A stretch of DNA of 64,000 bases, from positions 1-64,000 of the forward strand of contig JAEUIE010000044.1 in NCBI GenBank assembly GCA_016795155.1. The letters are read 5' to 3'. The stretch comes from Planctomycetia bacterium (GTDB lineage Bacteria; Planctomycetota; Planctomycetia; Gemmatales; HRBIN36). The notes below the pieces were generated by a model that did not search any database, was not told where the DNA came from, and saw only the letters and a program-made list of their open reading frames with translations. Positions 23,551 through 32,710 of this stretch are shown one piece after another (the first letter of the stretch is position 1; each line of letters opens with the position of its first letter). The position numbers and the translations under genes are program-made.

Positions 23551-25965
23551 ATGGCCGCCAAGCTGCCCGGCGTTTGGGGTATTGATCTTGGACAAAGCGC
23601 ACTGAAGGCCATTCGCCTTGAATTAATAGATGGAGTCGTGACAGCTACGGCGTTCGACTACATCGAACACCCGAAGATTCTCAGCCAGCCCGATGCTGAT
23701 CCGGAACAACTCACTCGCGATGCCCTGCAGCAGTTCCTTTCGCGAAACAAATTGCAAGGCGATCAGATTGCCATCAGCGTACCAGGGCAAACCGGCCTGG
23801 CGCGATTCGTTAAACTGCCTCCCGTTGAAGCCAAGAAAATTCCCGACATTGTCAAATTCGAAGCCAAGCAGCAGATACCCTTCCCACTCGATGAAGTGGT
23901 CTGGGACTGGCAGCGCATCGGCTCCGAGAGCGGCGAAGATTTTGCGGAGAACGAAGTCGGCCTGTTCGCCATGAAGCGCGACATGGTCAATCGTTATCTG
24001 CAATCATTCCGCGACGCCATGATCGAAGTACATCATGTGCAGATGGCCCCACTGGCATTGGCCAACTATGTCACGTTCGATCAGTTGGGCAAAGGTGCCT
24101 ACGGCACTGACGATCCCAATGATTCCAGTGATGATGGTTGCATGGTGGCAGTCGATGTTGGTGTCGATAACTCCAATCTCGTAGTTACCGATGGAAAGAA
24201 AGTTATCTGGCAGCGACCCATCCCCATTGGAGGCAATCATTTCACCCGCGCGTTGACCAAAGAAATGAAGCTCACCTTTGCCAAGGCTGAGCATCTCAAA
24301 CGCAATGCCACTAAGGCTGAAGACCCCAAGAAGATCTTCCAGGCCATGAAGCCTGTCTTCTCTGATTTCGTCGGTGAGTTACAGCGTTCGCTGGGATTCT
24401 TTACGAATACCCATCGCGGGGCCAATGTAACCCGCATGGTGGGTTTGGGCAATGCATTCCGCCTGCCTGGGTTGCAGAAGTTTGTCAGCCAGAGCTTGGG
24501 AATGGATCTGGAGAAAGTGGAAACATTCGGCCGGCTGGCTGGCGATGACGTCAAGAAATCCCCCATTTTCCTCGATAACATCCTCAGTTTTGCGGTCGCG
24601 TATGGCCTGGCATTGCAGGGGCTTAAGCAGTGCCGCATTCAGACGAATCTGTTGCCTAATGAAATTCGCGTCGAGCGTATGATTCGTGCCAAGAAGCCGA
24701 TGGCGCTGGCTGGTGCAGCGGCATTACTACTGGGATTGGGAATCTACTCCTGGTCGAGTGGTTCCAGTTTTGCTCACGCCAAGTCTGCAGCCAAAGCTGC
24801 CGAGGAAGCAAACTCGGTCATCTCGAACAAGAATCGGCTGGATACTCAATACACCGAAAAGCGAAATGAAGTAATCAAAGCCAGGCATGATGCTGCGAAC
24901 ATCATTCGAGGCAGCGAAGAGCGGGTCAATTGGCCGCTGTTCTATCGTTTGCTGAATGATTGCTTGCCACGTCCCAACGGCACCAATCTGCCTGCCAATA
25001 CACTTTGGGATACCACCGTTCCCAGCCGGGCTTATTACAACATCGAATCGCAGCGTGCCAACGAAATTTTGCTGGAACGTCTGCAACAGGCGCTATTGAC
25101 CGACAACTTCAATCAGAATGACCTCATTCAGGTGAATATTACCGGTGTGTATGCGAGGTATTGTGACCTGGCGATGGCCAACAGCTTTTACACGAACGTG
25201 AAAAACCCTGAAATCAATTTGAACCGGGATGGTGTAAGGTACGATTGGCCAACCTATCGTGGGAACGATGACTGGAAGGAAGCACCCAAGAAGCCAGGCT
25301 GGGCAATTGAAATTCGCGGCTACACCTTCCACAGGGAAGCGCAGCGATTTGTTGAACACACACTGGTGGAAAATCTGAAGCAGAGGAAGGCCGTTCCCTG
25401 GCCATTGCAAAGCCCGATGCCGAAGCTGACGCCGATCGAGACCAGCCATGTGGCACTGATCAAGTACCGAACTACGACCAATCCCGCTGAATCGTTCAGC
25501 CTGATCGATGCACCACTGTATATCAACGATCTGGTATCGTCAGGTGCAACAGGCGGAGGTGGTGGCATGGGAGCCAAAGCCGGTGGACTGAGTATGGGGG
25601 GTGGTCTTGGAGGAGAAGGTGGTGCCGCGGCCGATGCACCTAATCCACGCGTTACTCCCTGGGTGGGACTCGGACTGGTACATGGATCCGCTGGAGCCGG
25701 TTCAGGCATGGGTAATGCTGGCGGTGGACTAGCCCAGAAAGGTGGCTTGGCTGGTATACCCGGAGGAAGTTCGTCAGGTATGACAGTGGGTGGCGGACAA
25801 ACTGGCACTACTGCCAACTCTGGGAATGTTGCCAACACCGCGGAACGAGCTTTTGAACGTAAGCGAACGGAATTCGTCATAGTCCTGTACTGGGTAGAAC
25901 CTCTACCCACCGAACCTGAAGAGGCCAAAGCGAGCGGACAGCCCTCAGCAGCTCCTTCACAGTAA
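23551..25965 (+). CDS. PilM-like pilus assembly ATPase fused to a PilN-like membrane domain
   Basis: An 804-residue protein. Residues 1-360 are an actin-like PilM domain: GIDLGQSALKAIRLE at the start, FPLDEVVWDWQ, VDVGVDNSNLVV, and GGNHFTRAL. It runs directly into NLLPNEIRVER (366-376), which matches the N-terminal signature by which PilN docks on PilM. One TM segment (384-400) and a helical extracytoplasmic region follow. Residues about 664-775 are glycine-rich (GGGGGMG, GGGLGG repeats), followed by a short strand-rich end (FVIVLYWVEPL). The start is supported by GGGAG. It heads a three-gene run. The PilM assignment is firm; the PilN fusion is inferred. Confidence 0.8.
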   Translation: MAAKLPGVWGIDLGQSALKAIRLELIDGVVTATAFDYIEHPKILSQPDADPEQLTRDALQQFLSRNKLQGDQIAISVPGQTGLARFVKLPPVEAKKIPDIVKFEAKQQIPFPLDEVVWDWQRIGSESGEDFAENEVGLFAMKRDMVNRYLQSFRDAMIEVHHVQMAPLALANYVTFDQLGKGAYGTDDPNDSSDDGCMVAVDVGVDNSNLVVTDGKKVIWQRPIPIGGNHFTRALTKEMKLTFAKAEHLKRNATKAEDPKKIFQAMKPVFSDFVGELQRSLGFFTNTHRGANVTRMVGLGNAFRLPGLQKFVSQSLGMDLEKVETFGRLAGDDVKKSPIFLDNILSFAVAYGLALQGLKQCRIQTNLLPNEIRVERMIRAKKPMALAGAAALLLGLGIYSWSSGSSFAHAKSAAKAAEEANSVISNKNRLDTQYTEKRNEVIKARHDAANIIRGSEERVNWPLFYRLLNDCLPRPNGTNLPANTLWDTTVPSRAYYNIESQRANEILLERLQQALLTDNFNQNDLIQVNITGVYARYCDLAMANSFYTNVKNPEINLNRDGVRYDWPTYRGNDDWKEAPKKPGWAIEIRGYTFHREAQRFVEHTLVENLKQRKAVPWPLQSPMPKLTPIETSHVALIKYRTTTNPAESFSLIDAPLYINDLVSSGATGGGGGMGAKAGGLSMGGGLGGEGGAAADAPNPRVTPWVGLGLVHGSAGAGSGMGNAGGGLAQKGGLAGIPGGSSSGMTVGGGQTGTTANSGNVANTAERAFERKRTEFVIVLYWVEPLPTEPEEAKASGQPSAAPSQ

Positions 25966-26030: not shown

Positions 26031-28550
26031 ATGGCCATGAAACTCGATAAAGAAACAGTGATCAAACATCGTTTCTGGTTCCTGTTACCCGTCTTCGCTA
26101 TCTGCCTGCTGGTGGGTTGGATCTGCGTACTAGGTGTGCGTGGCGAAACAGCCAAGAACTATACGACTGCCCGTGAGCGGGACAATGCACTGAAAAATAT
26201 CAGCAGCCAGCAGGAACTGAAGAATCAGTCATGGATTGATGCCATGATCAAGGAACTGGAAGTCTCTTCAGCCAAGAAAAACGAACTCTGGTACAAGGAA
26301 TTTGATCGTCAAAACAAGGTGGTACGCGACACCAAGGATCGCAATCAGTATCGCATCATGCAGCCATTCTTCACCTGGCCGGAACGTACTCGTGCGCAGT
26401 GGATGAAAACCAGCCAGGGTCGCGACCTGTACAACATGGATTTTGGTGAATACCTCGGCAATGTTCCCAGTGATGAATACCGCGAAGAATACCTTGGCCA
26501 GTTTGAAGGCATTGTAGATCTGGTGAAAGACTGGTTGAATGAAACCAATCCCAACAATCCGTTAGGTGCTGTACGTGTCTACGGAGGAAAAGATGACCAT
26601 CGCAGATATGTCATTCCACAGTTGCTGAAACCTTACAATCTGCTCAAGGAAAAACATGTACTGTCTGATGAAATCCACCTGCTGCAGGAAGATGTCGCAG
26701 TCAAACGGGAAATCATGGCCAGCCTGGCTGATCTGCTGGACAGTTACTCCAAGCTGAAACATGAATGGAATGAAGTGCCATTTGATGATATCAAAGCAGC
26801 CTCAGCGCCTGTTGCTGTGTCTACCAGTTCGAATCCTGCCGATGGCCAGGCAGCAGCCAACCCGACTATAGCTGCTCCAGTTGCCACCACGGATAATGCT
26901 CCGGTTGTCCCTGCCGCCCGGGAAAGCTCTCCTGAAATTTATCAGAAAGTACGTTTCTACAATTACATATGGCCCAATCTGCTTAACACAGCAGAGATAG
27001 CTCAGAATGCCAAACTGAAGCCCACCACGGTTGAGTTCGGCTTGCCCGTTGTAGACCCCTATAAAGGCTGGAGACTGGACCTTCAGGTAGGCCAGGATCC
27101 TCAGGATGATAAGAAACTGATATTGCATATCGTCTCGGCCAACCATAGCAGCCTGCATAGCTTGCCAGTGATGCCACTCATGGTCTGGTATTCAGAACTC
27201 GGCAGCGAACTGGAATCAAATCAGCCCCTTTTTGTGAGCGATGCCGGTGGAGTTGGCCCCAGCGAATACTGGCCCAATGCAACGATCAAAAAAATCAGTG
27301 AAAAGAAATTGAAGGAAATTCCGCTTCCCGCCAATTTTGGCAAGATCACACGAGTCACCCGTGTACTGCCAGAAAATGCCATCGATCAGCAGGTGGTCTT
27401 CAACAATGACTGGCTGGTAAACTTGCAACTGACACGTCGTGCCAATACGCCTACCCTCACCTTGCGAGGTGAGGTTATCAATCGCAGTGGACGGCGATTA
27501 CCCGTCTCTACCTTTACTGCCGGTTTGACTCTACCCAACTCAACCAATCTACTTCAGGAAGAATTCAAAATTCCAGTAGATGCCTTCAATGCCGGCGAAC
27601 GTCGAACCTTCGCTCAGGAAATCAAGAACCCCATACAACCTCGCACCATTGCCATCGTTCGACAGAAACTCAACTGGCGATCAACGCCGATCAAGCGAAT
27701 CGATCGACTGGAAATCGGCGAAGTAGCCCATCAACAATCAGATCGATTGAAGATCCTGCCATTGAAAGCCTATGATTTCAAAACTAAGGATCCATTGAAC
27801 CAGAACATATCCACTACACCCGTAGACCCTGCAGCAGGTGGAGAGCAGGCAGGCGAGGCAACCGCTGGTGGTTTTGGTGCACTCGGTATGGGAGGTGGAA
27901 ACAAGCTGGGTACCGGTGGGGCCGCCGGAAACGTTTTCAGCCCCAATCAGGGTATTCCGCTGAAACGCTACGTGGAAGTATCATCGCAGTTGCGAAGAAT
28001 GCCGGTTGCCCTGGTCATGGTCGTGGATGCCACAGCAATTACAGATGTGATAGCTGCCATGTCGAACTCACGCCTGCGTTTTCAGGTTACGATGGCTCCC
28101 TGGACCAAAATCCAGAATCTGGGTCGACCAGGAACGGCCGAAGCAACAGCCAGTGCCAGTACAGCCGGACAACCTTCCTCACGTGGTGCCGAAGCGCTCG
28201 CGTCTGGTGGAAGCTCCATGCTTGCTAAAGGCGGTAGATTTGGACCAGGTACTTCTGGTGGCAGTGGTGGAGGAACTGGTGCACCTGGACTGATAGGCAG
28301 CGGTGATGGACCACCAGCTGGTGGTATTCAAGGTGGTGGAATTGGAGGGCGACAAGGTCCCGGGGCTGGTACAGCCGGCGGTCAGAAACCCACGGTTGTC
28401 AGCATGGGTTTTGAGGACGATTCGAGCGTGGTCGAACTACAGATTTATGGCATCATCACAGTCTATGAAAGCCCTGATCATGCTCGACGAATTGAGCAGC
28501 AAAAGGCCAATGCACCTGCAGCCGCCCCAACAACACCTCCAGCCCAGTAA
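26031..28550 (+). CDS. membrane-anchored glycine-rich protein of the pilM operon, unrecognised
   Basis: An 839-residue protein with a short basic cytoplasmic N-terminus, one TM segment (residues about 15-35, FWFLLPVFAICLLVGWICVLG), then a charged helical stretch, probably coiled coil (about 40-110). A long extracytoplasmic part follows. Glycine-rich blocks occur near residues 602-640 and 735-785. The segments around them (VEVSSQLRRMPVALVMVVDATAITDVIAAM; VELQIYGIITVYESP) look like ferredoxin-type strands. Topology and place after the PilM-PilN-like gene suggest a PilO-like partner. I do not recognise the family, so this is inference. It is 65 bp after the previous gene. Confidence 0.65.
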   Translation: MAMKLDKETVIKHRFWFLLPVFAICLLVGWICVLGVRGETAKNYTTARERDNALKNISSQQELKNQSWIDAMIKELEVSSAKKNELWYKEFDRQNKVVRDTKDRNQYRIMQPFFTWPERTRAQWMKTSQGRDLYNMDFGEYLGNVPSDEYREEYLGQFEGIVDLVKDWLNETNPNNPLGAVRVYGGKDDHRRYVIPQLLKPYNLLKEKHVLSDEIHLLQEDVAVKREIMASLADLLDSYSKLKHEWNEVPFDDIKAASAPVAVSTSSNPADGQAAANPTIAAPVATTDNAPVVPAARESSPEIYQKVRFYNYIWPNLLNTAEIAQNAKLKPTTVEFGLPVVDPYKGWRLDLQVGQDPQDDKKLILHIVSANHSSLHSLPVMPLMVWYSELGSELESNQPLFVSDAGGVGPSEYWPNATIKKISEKKLKEIPLPANFGKITRVTRVLPENAIDQQVVFNNDWLVNLQLTRRANTPTLTLRGEVINRSGRRLPVSTFTAGLTLPNSTNLLQEEFKIPVDAFNAGERRTFAQEIKNPIQPRTIAIVRQKLNWRSTPIKRIDRLEIGEVAHQQSDRLKILPLKAYDFKTKDPLNQNISTTPVDPAAGGEQAGEATAGGFGALGMGGGNKLGTGGAAGNVFSPNQGIPLKRYVEVSSQLRRMPVALVMVVDATAITDVIAAMSNSRLRFQVTMAPWTKIQNLGRPGTAEATASASTAGQPSSRGAEALASGGSSMLAKGGRFGPGTSGGSGGGTGAPGLIGSGDGPPAGGIQGGGIGGRQGPGAGTAGGQKPTVVSMGFEDDSSVVELQIYGIITVYESPDHARRIEQQKANAPAAAPTTPPAQ

Positions 28551-28610: not shown

Positions 28611-30851
28611 ATGGCTAAAGTCAAATTCGATGCGAAGGAATTCATGTTGCAGTATGGCGACCGCATCGGAGTCGGAATCGCAGGCTTCCTGGCATTGCTC
28701 TTCCTGGTATTTGCCATACTGGGCACCAGTGGTGGAGTATCTGCCGAACAGGTGAAAGACAGTGGCAAGAATGCCGACGACGCCATTCGTCGCTCCGAAG
28801 TGAACCCGGAGAAAATTGCACTCAAAGATGAGGCAACCGTCAAACCGCTGAATCAGATCGATGAACTTTCCCGTTCATTGACCAAACAGATTTCGATTGA
28901 TCAGCTTCAACTCGCTTATCGGTTCTTTGAACCTGAAGTCCCCCGTGGTAAATTCCGCTCCAATCCTAAAGTACTGGATGTCATCGAACTTGCAGTTGAA
29001 CCACTGATTGGAGCGTTCCGGATGTATGAAATCCGCTATGTCAATAACAATGAAGAAGTCATGGTGGTAACACCACGTGCTGGAGTCAAAGCACCCAACC
29101 TGGGACAGAATAAGAACAACTTTCAGCAGGGAAATGGCCAGAATCTTGGTACCGGCGGACCACCAGGGGGTGGATTGGCTGGTGGCGGACTAGGTATGGG
29201 ACAGGGTTCTGGTCGTGGAGGACCTCCAGGAGCAGGGAGAGGCAAACTCGGAGGTAAGGGTGGCTTAGCAGGGGGTAATCAAGGAAAAAGTACCACGACA
29301 ACGACTAAGGCTCCTTCAGGCAATCCTGGTGGTGATGAATCCATTTATACCTTTGTCTGGCAGAAGAATGTTGCTCCCAACGATATTCTTGGAGTAACCA
29401 TCAGACCCTTACGAAGTGCCTACATTGCAGCCACCTATCCGCACGGCAAGCAAACAGAAGAAATTGCCAAAAAACTGCAGATCCAGCCGTTTGAAGTGGA
29501 ACGTCTCTACCGTCGAATCGATGTTCAGCGACGTCGCATTATTCCCAAGGGCACTTTGCTGCCTGACGGAAAGTACACCGAAACCGAACTGGTGGAAGTC
29601 GCCAATCCACGAGATCGTTCCAAAATGGAATACAAAACTCAGGCTGATATCGACAAGGCGCTCGCATCACTTGACGACCAGAGTTCTGACAAGGATCGTG
29701 ATGCAGCAGCAGGATGGACCGATATTAATATCCGTAATGTTGCTGCAGTCATGCGGACAGCTTACTCGGTTGTTCGATCCAACAATGAGCCTTTCTATAC
29801 CGAAAAAGAATCAATCATTCAGGAATTGCTCGACTATGCAGGCCCCCGTATCGCCTTGCGATTGCCTCGCATGGTACGCAATGACGAGTATCCCGACATC
29901 ATGTCAAAGCTGCCAACGTTGATGGCAGCTGTGAAGAAAATCAAGGATGATGCCAAGGCAAAGATACCACCACCACCTCGTGACAGCCGCATTACCGGTG
30001 GTACCATGGAAGAATTTGAAGGCACAGGTGGAACCGAGTCGGAAGACTCGAAAAAGGATAAACCCAAGGATGCACCTGAACAGTCTTCGATCCCCGATTA
30101 TATTCCTATTCGCTTCATTGATGTTGATCTGCCAACCGAACTCGTTGGTGGAACCACCTATGAATATCGCATTCGCATGGTACTCAATAACCCGAACTTC
30201 AAGCGGGAGAGCGATGTTGCAGCTCCGGAATATGCTCGCGATGAAATGCTCTTCGGAGATTGGAGTAAAGCCGCACGAGTTTCCTTTGAACCTGATGACC
30301 TGATTTATGCCGGCGAGCGGGATCGTGCCAAAGGTACCACCGATGACCGTGAGAAGGACAAAGTTCCCGTGCAATTGCACAGTTGGCTGGGCAAGGCCCG
30401 CACGCTGGGTGGCAATGAAATGGACTTCGCACTCGTGGGCGACTGGTGGGTGGAAAAACTGCTGATTGGCCGTGGAGAATATATTGGTCGTTCACCAGAT
30501 GCACCCGGAGCTGCTGGCGAATCGAATCTGGTGCAGTGGATTTCCTATGCATTTGATTCGGTAAACAATAAAGTCGGTGCGGATGTTCAAAAGAAAACCA
30601 GGACACTTGATCTCTACACCGAGAATCTGCTAGTTGATTTCCATGGTGGTACTTACCAGTCGTATCGTTCCGATTTCGCCCGTACCACCAAGCGGGAAGA
30701 TGTACCTGCTGAACTGCTGATTCTAACAGCCGATGGCAGGCTGATTGCCCGTCAAACTGGCGATGATGCCCAGGATACAGGTCGGCAGAAACGTCTCGAG
30801 CATTGGAAGAACTGGGTAGAAAAACTGCACAAACCTGGTGACAAGAAATAA
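28611..30851 (+). CDS. membrane-anchored glycine-rich protein of the pilM operon, unrecognised
   Basis: A 746-residue protein with an amphipathic start and one TM segment (residues about 20-42, VGIAGFLALLFLVFAILG), then an extracytoplasmic body. A glycine-rich linker (residues about 177-225, GGPPGGGLAGGGLGMG) splits an N-terminal mixed domain from a larger C-terminal part. The latter includes YEYRIRMVLNNPNFKRESDVA, reminiscent of fibronectin-like or Ig-like strands. It could fill the role of PilP or another alignment-complex subunit, but no family motif is visible. It is 60 bp after the previous gene and ends 38 bp before a strong hairpin. Confidence 0.65.
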   Translation: MAKVKFDAKEFMLQYGDRIGVGIAGFLALLFLVFAILGTSGGVSAEQVKDSGKNADDAIRRSEVNPEKIALKDEATVKPLNQIDELSRSLTKQISIDQLQLAYRFFEPEVPRGKFRSNPKVLDVIELAVEPLIGAFRMYEIRYVNNNEEVMVVTPRAGVKAPNLGQNKNNFQQGNGQNLGTGGPPGGGLAGGGLGMGQGSGRGGPPGAGRGKLGGKGGLAGGNQGKSTTTTTKAPSGNPGGDESIYTFVWQKNVAPNDILGVTIRPLRSAYIAATYPHGKQTEEIAKKLQIQPFEVERLYRRIDVQRRRIIPKGTLLPDGKYTETELVEVANPRDRSKMEYKTQADIDKALASLDDQSSDKDRDAAAGWTDINIRNVAAVMRTAYSVVRSNNEPFYTEKESIIQELLDYAGPRIALRLPRMVRNDEYPDIMSKLPTLMAAVKKIKDDAKAKIPPPPRDSRITGGTMEEFEGTGGTESEDSKKDKPKDAPEQSSIPDYIPIRFIDVDLPTELVGGTTYEYRIRMVLNNPNFKRESDVAAPEYARDEMLFGDWSKAARVSFEPDDLIYAGERDRAKGTTDDREKDKVPVQLHSWLGKARTLGGNEMDFALVGDWWVEKLLIGRGEYIGRSPDAPGAAGESNLVQWISYAFDSVNNKVGADVQKKTRTLDLYTENLLVDFHGGTYQSYRSDFARTTKREDVPAELLILTADGRLIARQTGDDAQDTGRQKRLEHWKNWVEKLHKPGDKK

Positions 30852-31323: not shown

Positions 31324-31426
31324 ATGACTGTATTTCAAGCGATTCAGGGTTCAGATGCTACCCAAACGCTACCTGCTCTGGTAGTGTAAAAGGATTCCTA
31401 CCCTGTTGGTTGCTTGAATCGTTGTG

Positions 31427-32710
31427 ATGAAGAAATCCTGCTGCTGTACCAAGACATCCTGGCCCACCCGTTTCTTCCTGGTGCTGTTAAGGCTGGCCAT
31501 AGGCTGGCATCTTTTCATCGAAGGCGCCACCAAGCTGGAAACCTGGAGCGTCGGGCCATCCATCTCCAATAAGCCTTTTTCCAGCCGAGGCTACCTGCAG
31601 CAATCGCAAGGACCGCTCGGTCCGTTGTTCAGGAATATGGCTGGCGACCCCGATGCTACTCTGCTGACCTTGCTTGATACCAGCAGTCAGGCAATTCCCC
31701 CTGCTCTGGAAAAACAGTGGCAGGACTATGTCAACCGCTATTCAGCTCACTACCAACTCGACAATGCACAGCGACAACAGGCAGATATCCTGCTGAAACA
31801 GCACCTGCAGATGTTACAGACATGGTTCAAGGATGGCAAAAAGGAAGTAACCCGGGATTACCCGTTTGCCACCACTATTCCCACCCTCAGCACTGCTACA
31901 CGCATCAGCACGTATCGCAACAAGCATCAGGAACTCAGGGGCTACATCGATCAGTGGAATGTGCTCTTCAGCAAGGATGTCACCAAATCACGAGTGAGTG
32001 CGCTTCGCAGCGAGGTTAGTAAACTGCGAACCGAACTGCAACAGGATCTTGACGAACTGCAGAAGAAGCTGGGACAAGAACTGGATAAACTGCTGACGAA
32101 GGAACAGGAAGCAATTGATTTCGAAAAGTACATGGGCAGACTAATAAGCGCCTCGAATTCCGAAGGCAACAGCTCTGACCATCAGGCACTGGCAGAATTA
32201 AAACAAGCAGCACGTGAGGTTAAGAATAGTACTTTCACAGTGAATTGGGACACATTCAATACTTATCCTGAATCGGTGATCAGCGCTTTTCTGCAGGATC
32301 CGGACTATCGCAAGCTGGCCAATCGCATTGGCAAACGGGAAATGGCTCCACCCTTGCGTGTAGAAGATACCCGCCTGCTCGACTGGGCAGACCGTTCCGT
32401 CGCCTGGGGCCTGACACTGGCGGGCCTCGGATTGCTTCTGGGATGTTTCACTCGCTTGAGTAGCCTGGTGGGCGCTGGATTGCTCATGCTTTTTTATGTC
32501 TCTCTGCCTCCCCTTCCCGATTTGCCTGAAAACCCGCTCGCTGAGGGTAAGTATCTCTTTGTCAATAAGAACCTGATTGAAGCACTTGCACTCCTGGTGC
32601 TGGCAACCACTGCATCAGGCCGCTGGTTCGGCATTGATGCGCTGCTCTCCTGTATCTGGCCGTTCAAATATTTCTGGCCAGGAGAGAAGCCAGAAGCAAG
32701 TAGCAAGTAG
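31427..32710 (+). CDS. DoxX-like membrane protein with a large central insert
   Basis: A 427-residue protein. It opens with the DoxX-type helix (FFLVLLRLAIGWHLFIEGATKLE) and closes with three DoxX helices (SVAWGLTLAGLGLLLGCFTRLSSLVGAGLL; NKNLIEALALLVLATTASGRWFGID). Between them is an approximately 250-residue soluble insert, helical and charged, with a likely coiled coil (LRTELQQDLDELQKKLGQELDKLL). DoxX relatives are linked to quinone or thiosulfate redox steps, but no activity can be assigned here. The last four residues and stop come from a heptamer repeat. An upstream GTG at 31424 is an alternative start. Confidence 0.78.
   Translation: MKKSCCCTKTSWPTRFFLVLLRLAIGWHLFIEGATKLETWSVGPSISNKPFSSRGYLQQSQGPLGPLFRNMAGDPDATLLTLLDTSSQAIPPALEKQWQDYVNRYSAHYQLDNAQRQQADILLKQHLQMLQTWFKDGKKEVTRDYPFATTIPTLSTATRISTYRNKHQELRGYIDQWNVLFSKDVTKSRVSALRSEVSKLRTELQQDLDELQKKLGQELDKLLTKEQEAIDFEKYMGRLISASNSEGNSSDHQALAELKQAAREVKNSTFTVNWDTFNTYPESVISAFLQDPDYRKLANRIGKREMAPPLRVEDTRLLDWADRSVAWGLTLAGLGLLLGCFTRLSSLVGAGLLMLFYVSLPPLPDLPENPLAEGKYLFVNKNLIEALALLVLATTASGRWFGIDALLSCIWPFKYFWPGEKPEASSK

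Follow-up and report, generated by a model that had tools for sequence, protein, structure and literature searches.

We argue that the gene at 23551..25965 (+ strand, stop codon included), here called pilMN, encodes the PilM and the PilN of a type IVa-like pilus in a single chain. Taken as a whole this is the best explanation of the evidence, and we hold it to be probable. Normally these are two proteins, PilM in the cytoplasm and PilN across the membrane, which come together at the base of the type IV pilus. Positions are those of the window, which is the whole 64,000-nucleotide stretch of DNA that was analysed. The host is a planctomycete of the order Gemmatales with a genome of 5.28 Mb in 68 contigs, and pilMN is single-copy in it. 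The gene is one open frame of 804 aa. A first-pass annotation of this DNA, made from the letters, had described an apparent PilM-PilN fusion. That description is supported by PilM profiles and by a profile comparison that reaches PilN through an intermediate family. The two parts are fused, the fusion is conserved, the first part is PilM, and residues 363-475 are homologous to PilN.

The PilM domain spans residues 9-357 (23575..24621, +). It has an actin-like fold of the ATP-binding type, and PilM_2, TIGR01175 and Foldseek all recognize it. A PilM profile had been proposed as a check on the N-terminal part, and two of them score above their cut-offs. The Pfam family PilM_2 (PF11104) covers residues 10-356 with E=2.3e-33 and 116 bits against a cut-off of 27, and the NCBIfam family TIGR01175 pilM covers residues 9-357 with 157.1 bits against a cut-off of 133. 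When the pilMN model is searched against the PDB with Foldseek, ranks 1-10 are all PilM or PilM-PilN entries, with E down to 1.7e-23.

The domain runs on into NLLPNEIRVER, which starts at residue 366, and no stop intervenes, just as the first reading had it. A short variable linker (residues 358-364; 24622..24642, +) with high entropy at 359, 360 and 364 leads up to TNLLP, the docking peptide with which PilN ordinarily holds on to PilM (residues 365-369; 24643..24657, +). The peptide is identified by the invariance of LLP and by a phmmer alignment to the NLLP of 5eou. L367, L368 and P369 are the same in 72/72 aligned relatives, and the T and the N are each kept in 70/72. Positions 359, 360, 364, 370 and 374 are variable across those 72 relatives, with entropies of 2.4-3.3 bits. 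Of the 58 relatives in which the search pattern allowed the spacing from GLALQ to xLLP to be measured, 53 have 9 residues there and the other 5 have 16 or 20. From the last PilM helix to NLLP the natural junction is about 9 residues, compared with 10 in the engineered protein of 5eou.

That entry is also the top PDB match of the pilMN model. Chain B of 5eou is an engineered P. aeruginosa PilM:PilN1-12 fusion, and Foldseek gives it a TM by target of 0.82. The value is 0.83 for 2ych, which is PilM with a PilN peptide, and the peptide-bound entries, 5eou and 2ych, span 0.79-0.83. Peptide-free P. aeruginosa PilM crystals give 0.69-0.73, below peptide-bound PilM, in a comparison where species or crystal form differ too, so the difference is indirect evidence. 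Structure prediction had been suggested as a way to see whether NLLP lies far from the PilM groove in a confident model, and it did not refute the fusion, with a mean pLDDT of 93 for residues 361-370 in the single-chain AlphaFold model and 5eou as the best match. The xNLLP segment, reached through a linker of ~9 residues after the PilM C-terminal helix, would most likely occupy the groove of its own chain's PilM domain, much as in 5eou. The peptide could instead be swapped between domains, so that NLLP enters the groove of the next PilM domain around the ring and the fusion staples neighbours together. PilM acts as a ring, the ~9-residue linker is compatible with a swap, a few relatives have the longer linkers of 16 or 20 residues, and contacts in trans are invisible to single-chain prediction. 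However, the single-chain model places the peptide segment confidently and its conformation resembles peptide-bound PilM, and we consider the swap unlikely, though still worth keeping in mind. The model is compatible with docking of TNLLP in cis, and the cytoplasmic ring and the inner-membrane complex would be locked into one chain.

What follows the peptide was compared with PilN. The Pfam PilN profile (PF05137) has no match on the pilMN product, which is a weak test in this phylum. Free-standing PilN proteins of the Planctomycetota also fall below the Pfam cut-off, so we do not count the absence of a match as evidence. In a profile search these free-standing proteins find the solved PilN structures 4bhq and 3jc8 weakly (E=0.13 and 0.14). 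The link to PilN goes through a compact fused family of about 580 aa (f34), which is intermediate between the pilMN family and free PilN. The pilMN family matches f34 over residues 363-475 (97.0%, E=1.2e-10), and f34 matches free-standing planctomycete PilN starting at the peptide and reaching the first periplasmic strand (97.3%, E=2.5e-11). Compared directly with free PilN, the periplasmic region fails (0.2%) and the full-length profile gives 54.7%, limited to the R-x-x-W helix. A PilN profile search over this half had been part of the first-pass proposal; the Pfam model did not find PilN, and the profile comparison via f34 did, over residues 363-475. These alignments support the view that the residues from the peptide through the R-x-x-W helix correspond to the N-terminal part of PilN. 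A Pfam PilN search of the host's own genome returns nothing. The fusion may account for this, and such a search is weak in this phylum.

The membrane helix that had been read after NLLP (at 366-400) is borne out, with some adjustment of its borders. We place it at about residues 384-402 (24700..24756, +), where a hydropathy peak begins at 384 within an AF2 helix of residues 370-414. The mean over 19 residues is only 1.55, so this Ala-rich helix is just marginally hydrophobic; the 15 residues before it contain 5 K/R. The coiled coil and the R-x-x-W helix of PilN come next, at residues 419-471 (24805..24963, +), as AF2 helices 419-457 and 460-471 and within the profile match at 363-475. The helix motif after the coiled coil is of the PilN type, R458-x-x-W461...P473. 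A single membrane helix and then a coiled coil, directly after the peptide, is the arrangement expected of PilN, and both the AF2 helices and the profile match agree on it.

The last part of the chain is a periplasmic alpha/beta domain, residues 529-782 (25135..25896, +). Its elements are b1 529-538, b2 583-592, a2 598-611, b3 630-643 and b4 771-782, mostly with pLDDT of 84-96 in the AlphaFold model. A disordered Gly-rich loop of ~100 residues, at about 666-766, precedes the confidently placed last strand. The order of elements in the model is helix-strand-strand-helix-strand-strand, which is the (alpha-beta-beta)2 order of PilN and GspL. This order has been reported for GspL as a rare permutation, and domains of ferredoxin-like fold are also known from its pilus homologues PilN and PilO (PMC6233222). 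Foldseek run with the periplasmic model by itself finds no significant match in the PDB (best probability 0.03), and a profile search of the PDB with this region returns Gly-rich noise alone. The idea of a PilN-type fold after the membrane segment thus has half an answer: the order of elements agrees with it, and Foldseek gives no PDB match. The distal domain could be an unrelated graft, with just the N-terminal part of PilN retained, and it is true that residues 402-804 have no Foldseek, Pfam or PDB-profile match. But the helices and strands follow the rare GspL permutation (PMC6233222), the confidently placed last strand 771-782 included. Compact relatives also have a short PilN-like C-terminal region, and 3/12 of them have a weak hit to Pfam PilN (best E=0.013). 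We regard a graft as quite unlikely. A PilN fold is the reading of the distal domain that the model suggests.

The fusion is widespread. pilMN is matched in 40/41 near relatives, and most of the best matches are a long frame that continues past the PilM domain. A survey of the Planctomycetota found a match in 171/195 genomes, with most strong matches in frames of >500 codons. Five other planctomycetes have a separate pilM (about 350 aa) and pilN, with a PilO/GspM-like gene next and then, where examined, a PilQ-like secretin. Their pilN lies directly after pilM and its product starts with MI-x-(I/V)-(N/D)-L-(L/I)-P. In 2 of these unfused planctomycetes pilM and pilN overlap by ATGA, so a small length change could join both. 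At the same overlap of 4 bases a sequencing or assembly artefact could also join two genes. Yet the long frame recurs in independent near relatives (the 40/41 above), and throughout the phylum most PilM loci have it, and an artefact can be treated as already refuted.

Fused and unfused PilM domains fall on opposite sides of a 100/100 branch in an unrooted tree, and this split is compatible with a single fusion event. The tree was built without the GspL-like protein, which was left out because it had a very long branch in the first tree. One genome (G072) has the fused and the separate versions side by side. Two others (G205, with L189 and L190, and G191) each have two fused PilMN genes that have diverged from one another, which may point to duplicated systems. 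It should also be mentioned that contigs labelled Nitrospira, Bacteroidales and Kuenenia (L033, L062, L087 and L088) carry a PilMN 43-53% identical to that of the Gemmatales. They are probably mis-binned or mis-named metagenome contigs.

Two genes follow pilMN on the same strand, and the trio is conserved in the Gemmatales. OrfB (839 aa; 26031..28550, +) and OrfC (746 aa; 28611..30851, +) each have one N-terminal membrane helix. We propose OrfB as the PilO counterpart by its position and layout, and OrfC as the protein in the PilP position. OrfB has no Pfam match and no PDB match, and OrfC has no family match of its own and no PDB match; they are too divergent for the PilO and PilP profiles, respectively. 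For two homologues of OrfB there is a weak match to Amuc_1100_fam (best E=0.011). Within the window there is no secretin in the pilMN operon. In compact relatives the order is pilMN - OrfB - OrfC - secretin, and in several of them the OrfC position comes before the secretin gene.

Gly-rich, probably disordered periplasmic loops occur in all three operon proteins (window 25495-25839, 27810-28427 and 29076-29339). These stretches are residues 649-763 of PilMN, 594-643 and 711-799 of OrfB, and 156-243 of OrfC. Compact relatives in other classes do not have this composition, with 3-9% Gly over the whole protein. Downstream of the operon (window 31424-32710) is a DoxX-type membrane protein of 428 aa. 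It matches DoxX in two stretches and contains a large insert that looks like a coiled coil.

The rest of a type IVa pilus gene set is in the genome: PilB-like ATPase, PilT, PilC, pilins and secretin were all found. Another contig of the same genome (C3) encodes two PilB-like ATPases, a PilT-family ATPase above its cut-off, a PilC/GspF platform protein and pilin-type proteins. There are four secretins in the genome. In another planctomycete, Planctopirus limnophila, genes can be deleted, and the removal of three putative pilQ genes has been published (PMC11958385). pilMN would be the partner of the ATPases on that contig, to which it is not genetically linked.

The scenario we propose is as follows. 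The PilM domain would lie in the cytoplasm, where its expected partners are the ATPases of assembly and retraction. After NLLP the chain would cross the inner membrane, make a coiled coil, and end in the PilN-like periplasmic domain. That domain would pair with the product of the next gene, OrfB. Tethering would set the PilM:PilN ratio at 1:1, and release of PilM from PilN would no longer be an option. With PilM tethered, switching would therefore have to occur by the peptide leaving the groove while still attached, or within the PilM domain.

We lean towards the view that the pili of the Planctomycetota, and probably those of the Verrucomicrobiota too by way of Amuc_1101, include a lineage of their own, with PilM tied permanently to PilN, strict selection on the peptide, and a retraction ATPase. 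Given a permanent tether and a retraction ATPase, the exchange of PilM on PilN would be no part of the pilus cycle in the fused lineage. With pilMN, nature offers a way to ask whether a working pilus requires PilM to bind PilN and then leave it. PilM is unable to leave, and still the docking motif shows no variation. This suggests that what counts is being docked as such, or undocking on the tether.

The kind of fusion is already known, since GspL/EpsL has been described as a natural PilM-PilN fusion (PMC10191384, PMC6325625). Like the pilMN product, GspL/EpsL/PulL combines in one chain an actin-type domain resembling PilM, a single membrane helix and a periplasmic domain resembling PilN. With the same domain layout (PMC10191384, PMC6325625), pilMN might simply be the GspL of a type II secretion system (T2SS). 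However, TIGR01709 gspL scores it at 12 bits against a cut-off of 65, and TIGR01175 pilM is above its cut-off. The genome also has a separate T2SS cluster on another contig (C23), with its own 527-aa PilM_2-bearing protein in the gspL position. The neighbours of pilMN are OrfB and OrfC rather than that cluster, and in compact relatives the fused gene is beside a pilus-type secretin. All this makes a GspL very improbable. Unlike GspL, the pilMN product is PilM by profile, and its exact PilN docking motif is invariant. A T2SS also has no retraction ATPase (PMC10191384), whereas the pilMN genome has one of the PilT family.

Two features of the T2SS cluster deserve a remark of their own. Its GspL-like protein (L114:9197-10777, -) has IPLEFLAPKK at ~residues 290-305, just before the membrane helix. 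This is the place equivalent to NLLP, and the segment may be what is left of the same docking peptide. The secretin frame of the cluster (L114:2282-7957, -) is 1892 aa with ten Secretin_N stretches in Pfam, far above the usual length, and perhaps it spans a deep periplasm.

Another known counterpart is the Amuc_1101 family PilM-like pilus complex protein (NF045709; MUL2B of Akkermansia). It is homologous to pilMN over residues 43-469, NLLP and the membrane helix included, and it shares the layout of the pilMN product. The pilMN product scores 202 bits against NF045709, far under the cut-off of 650 and too low for an equivalog, and a compact planctomycete relative matches the same family over 34-597 of 608. 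The pilMN product differs from this family by its large insertions and its Gly-rich loop. The Akkermansia member has been called just a PilM protein (PMC13174399), and for NCBI and the literature the family is PilM or PilM-like rather than a fusion of PilM with PilN (PMC13174399). The fusion is a better description for a family that goes simply by the name PilM, and that includes an Akkermansia locus under active study.

Among solved structures, 5eou has a nearly equal junction, but it is engineered and has 12 PilN residues against the long PilN-like part of the pilMN product. The free pilM and pilN of other Planctomycetota are the unfused counterpart, in line with the canonical pilM-pilN-pilO-pilP-pilQ operon. 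Compact fused relatives keep the canonical order M-N-(O)-(P)-secretin, except that M and N are one gene. In a full-text literature search on PilM-PilN fusion, the descriptions among the hits read were all of the GspL type. What is new here is that a PilM of the pilus type is fused, that the fusion extends across a phylum, that the docking motif never varies, and that the genome also encodes a PilT-family ATPase.
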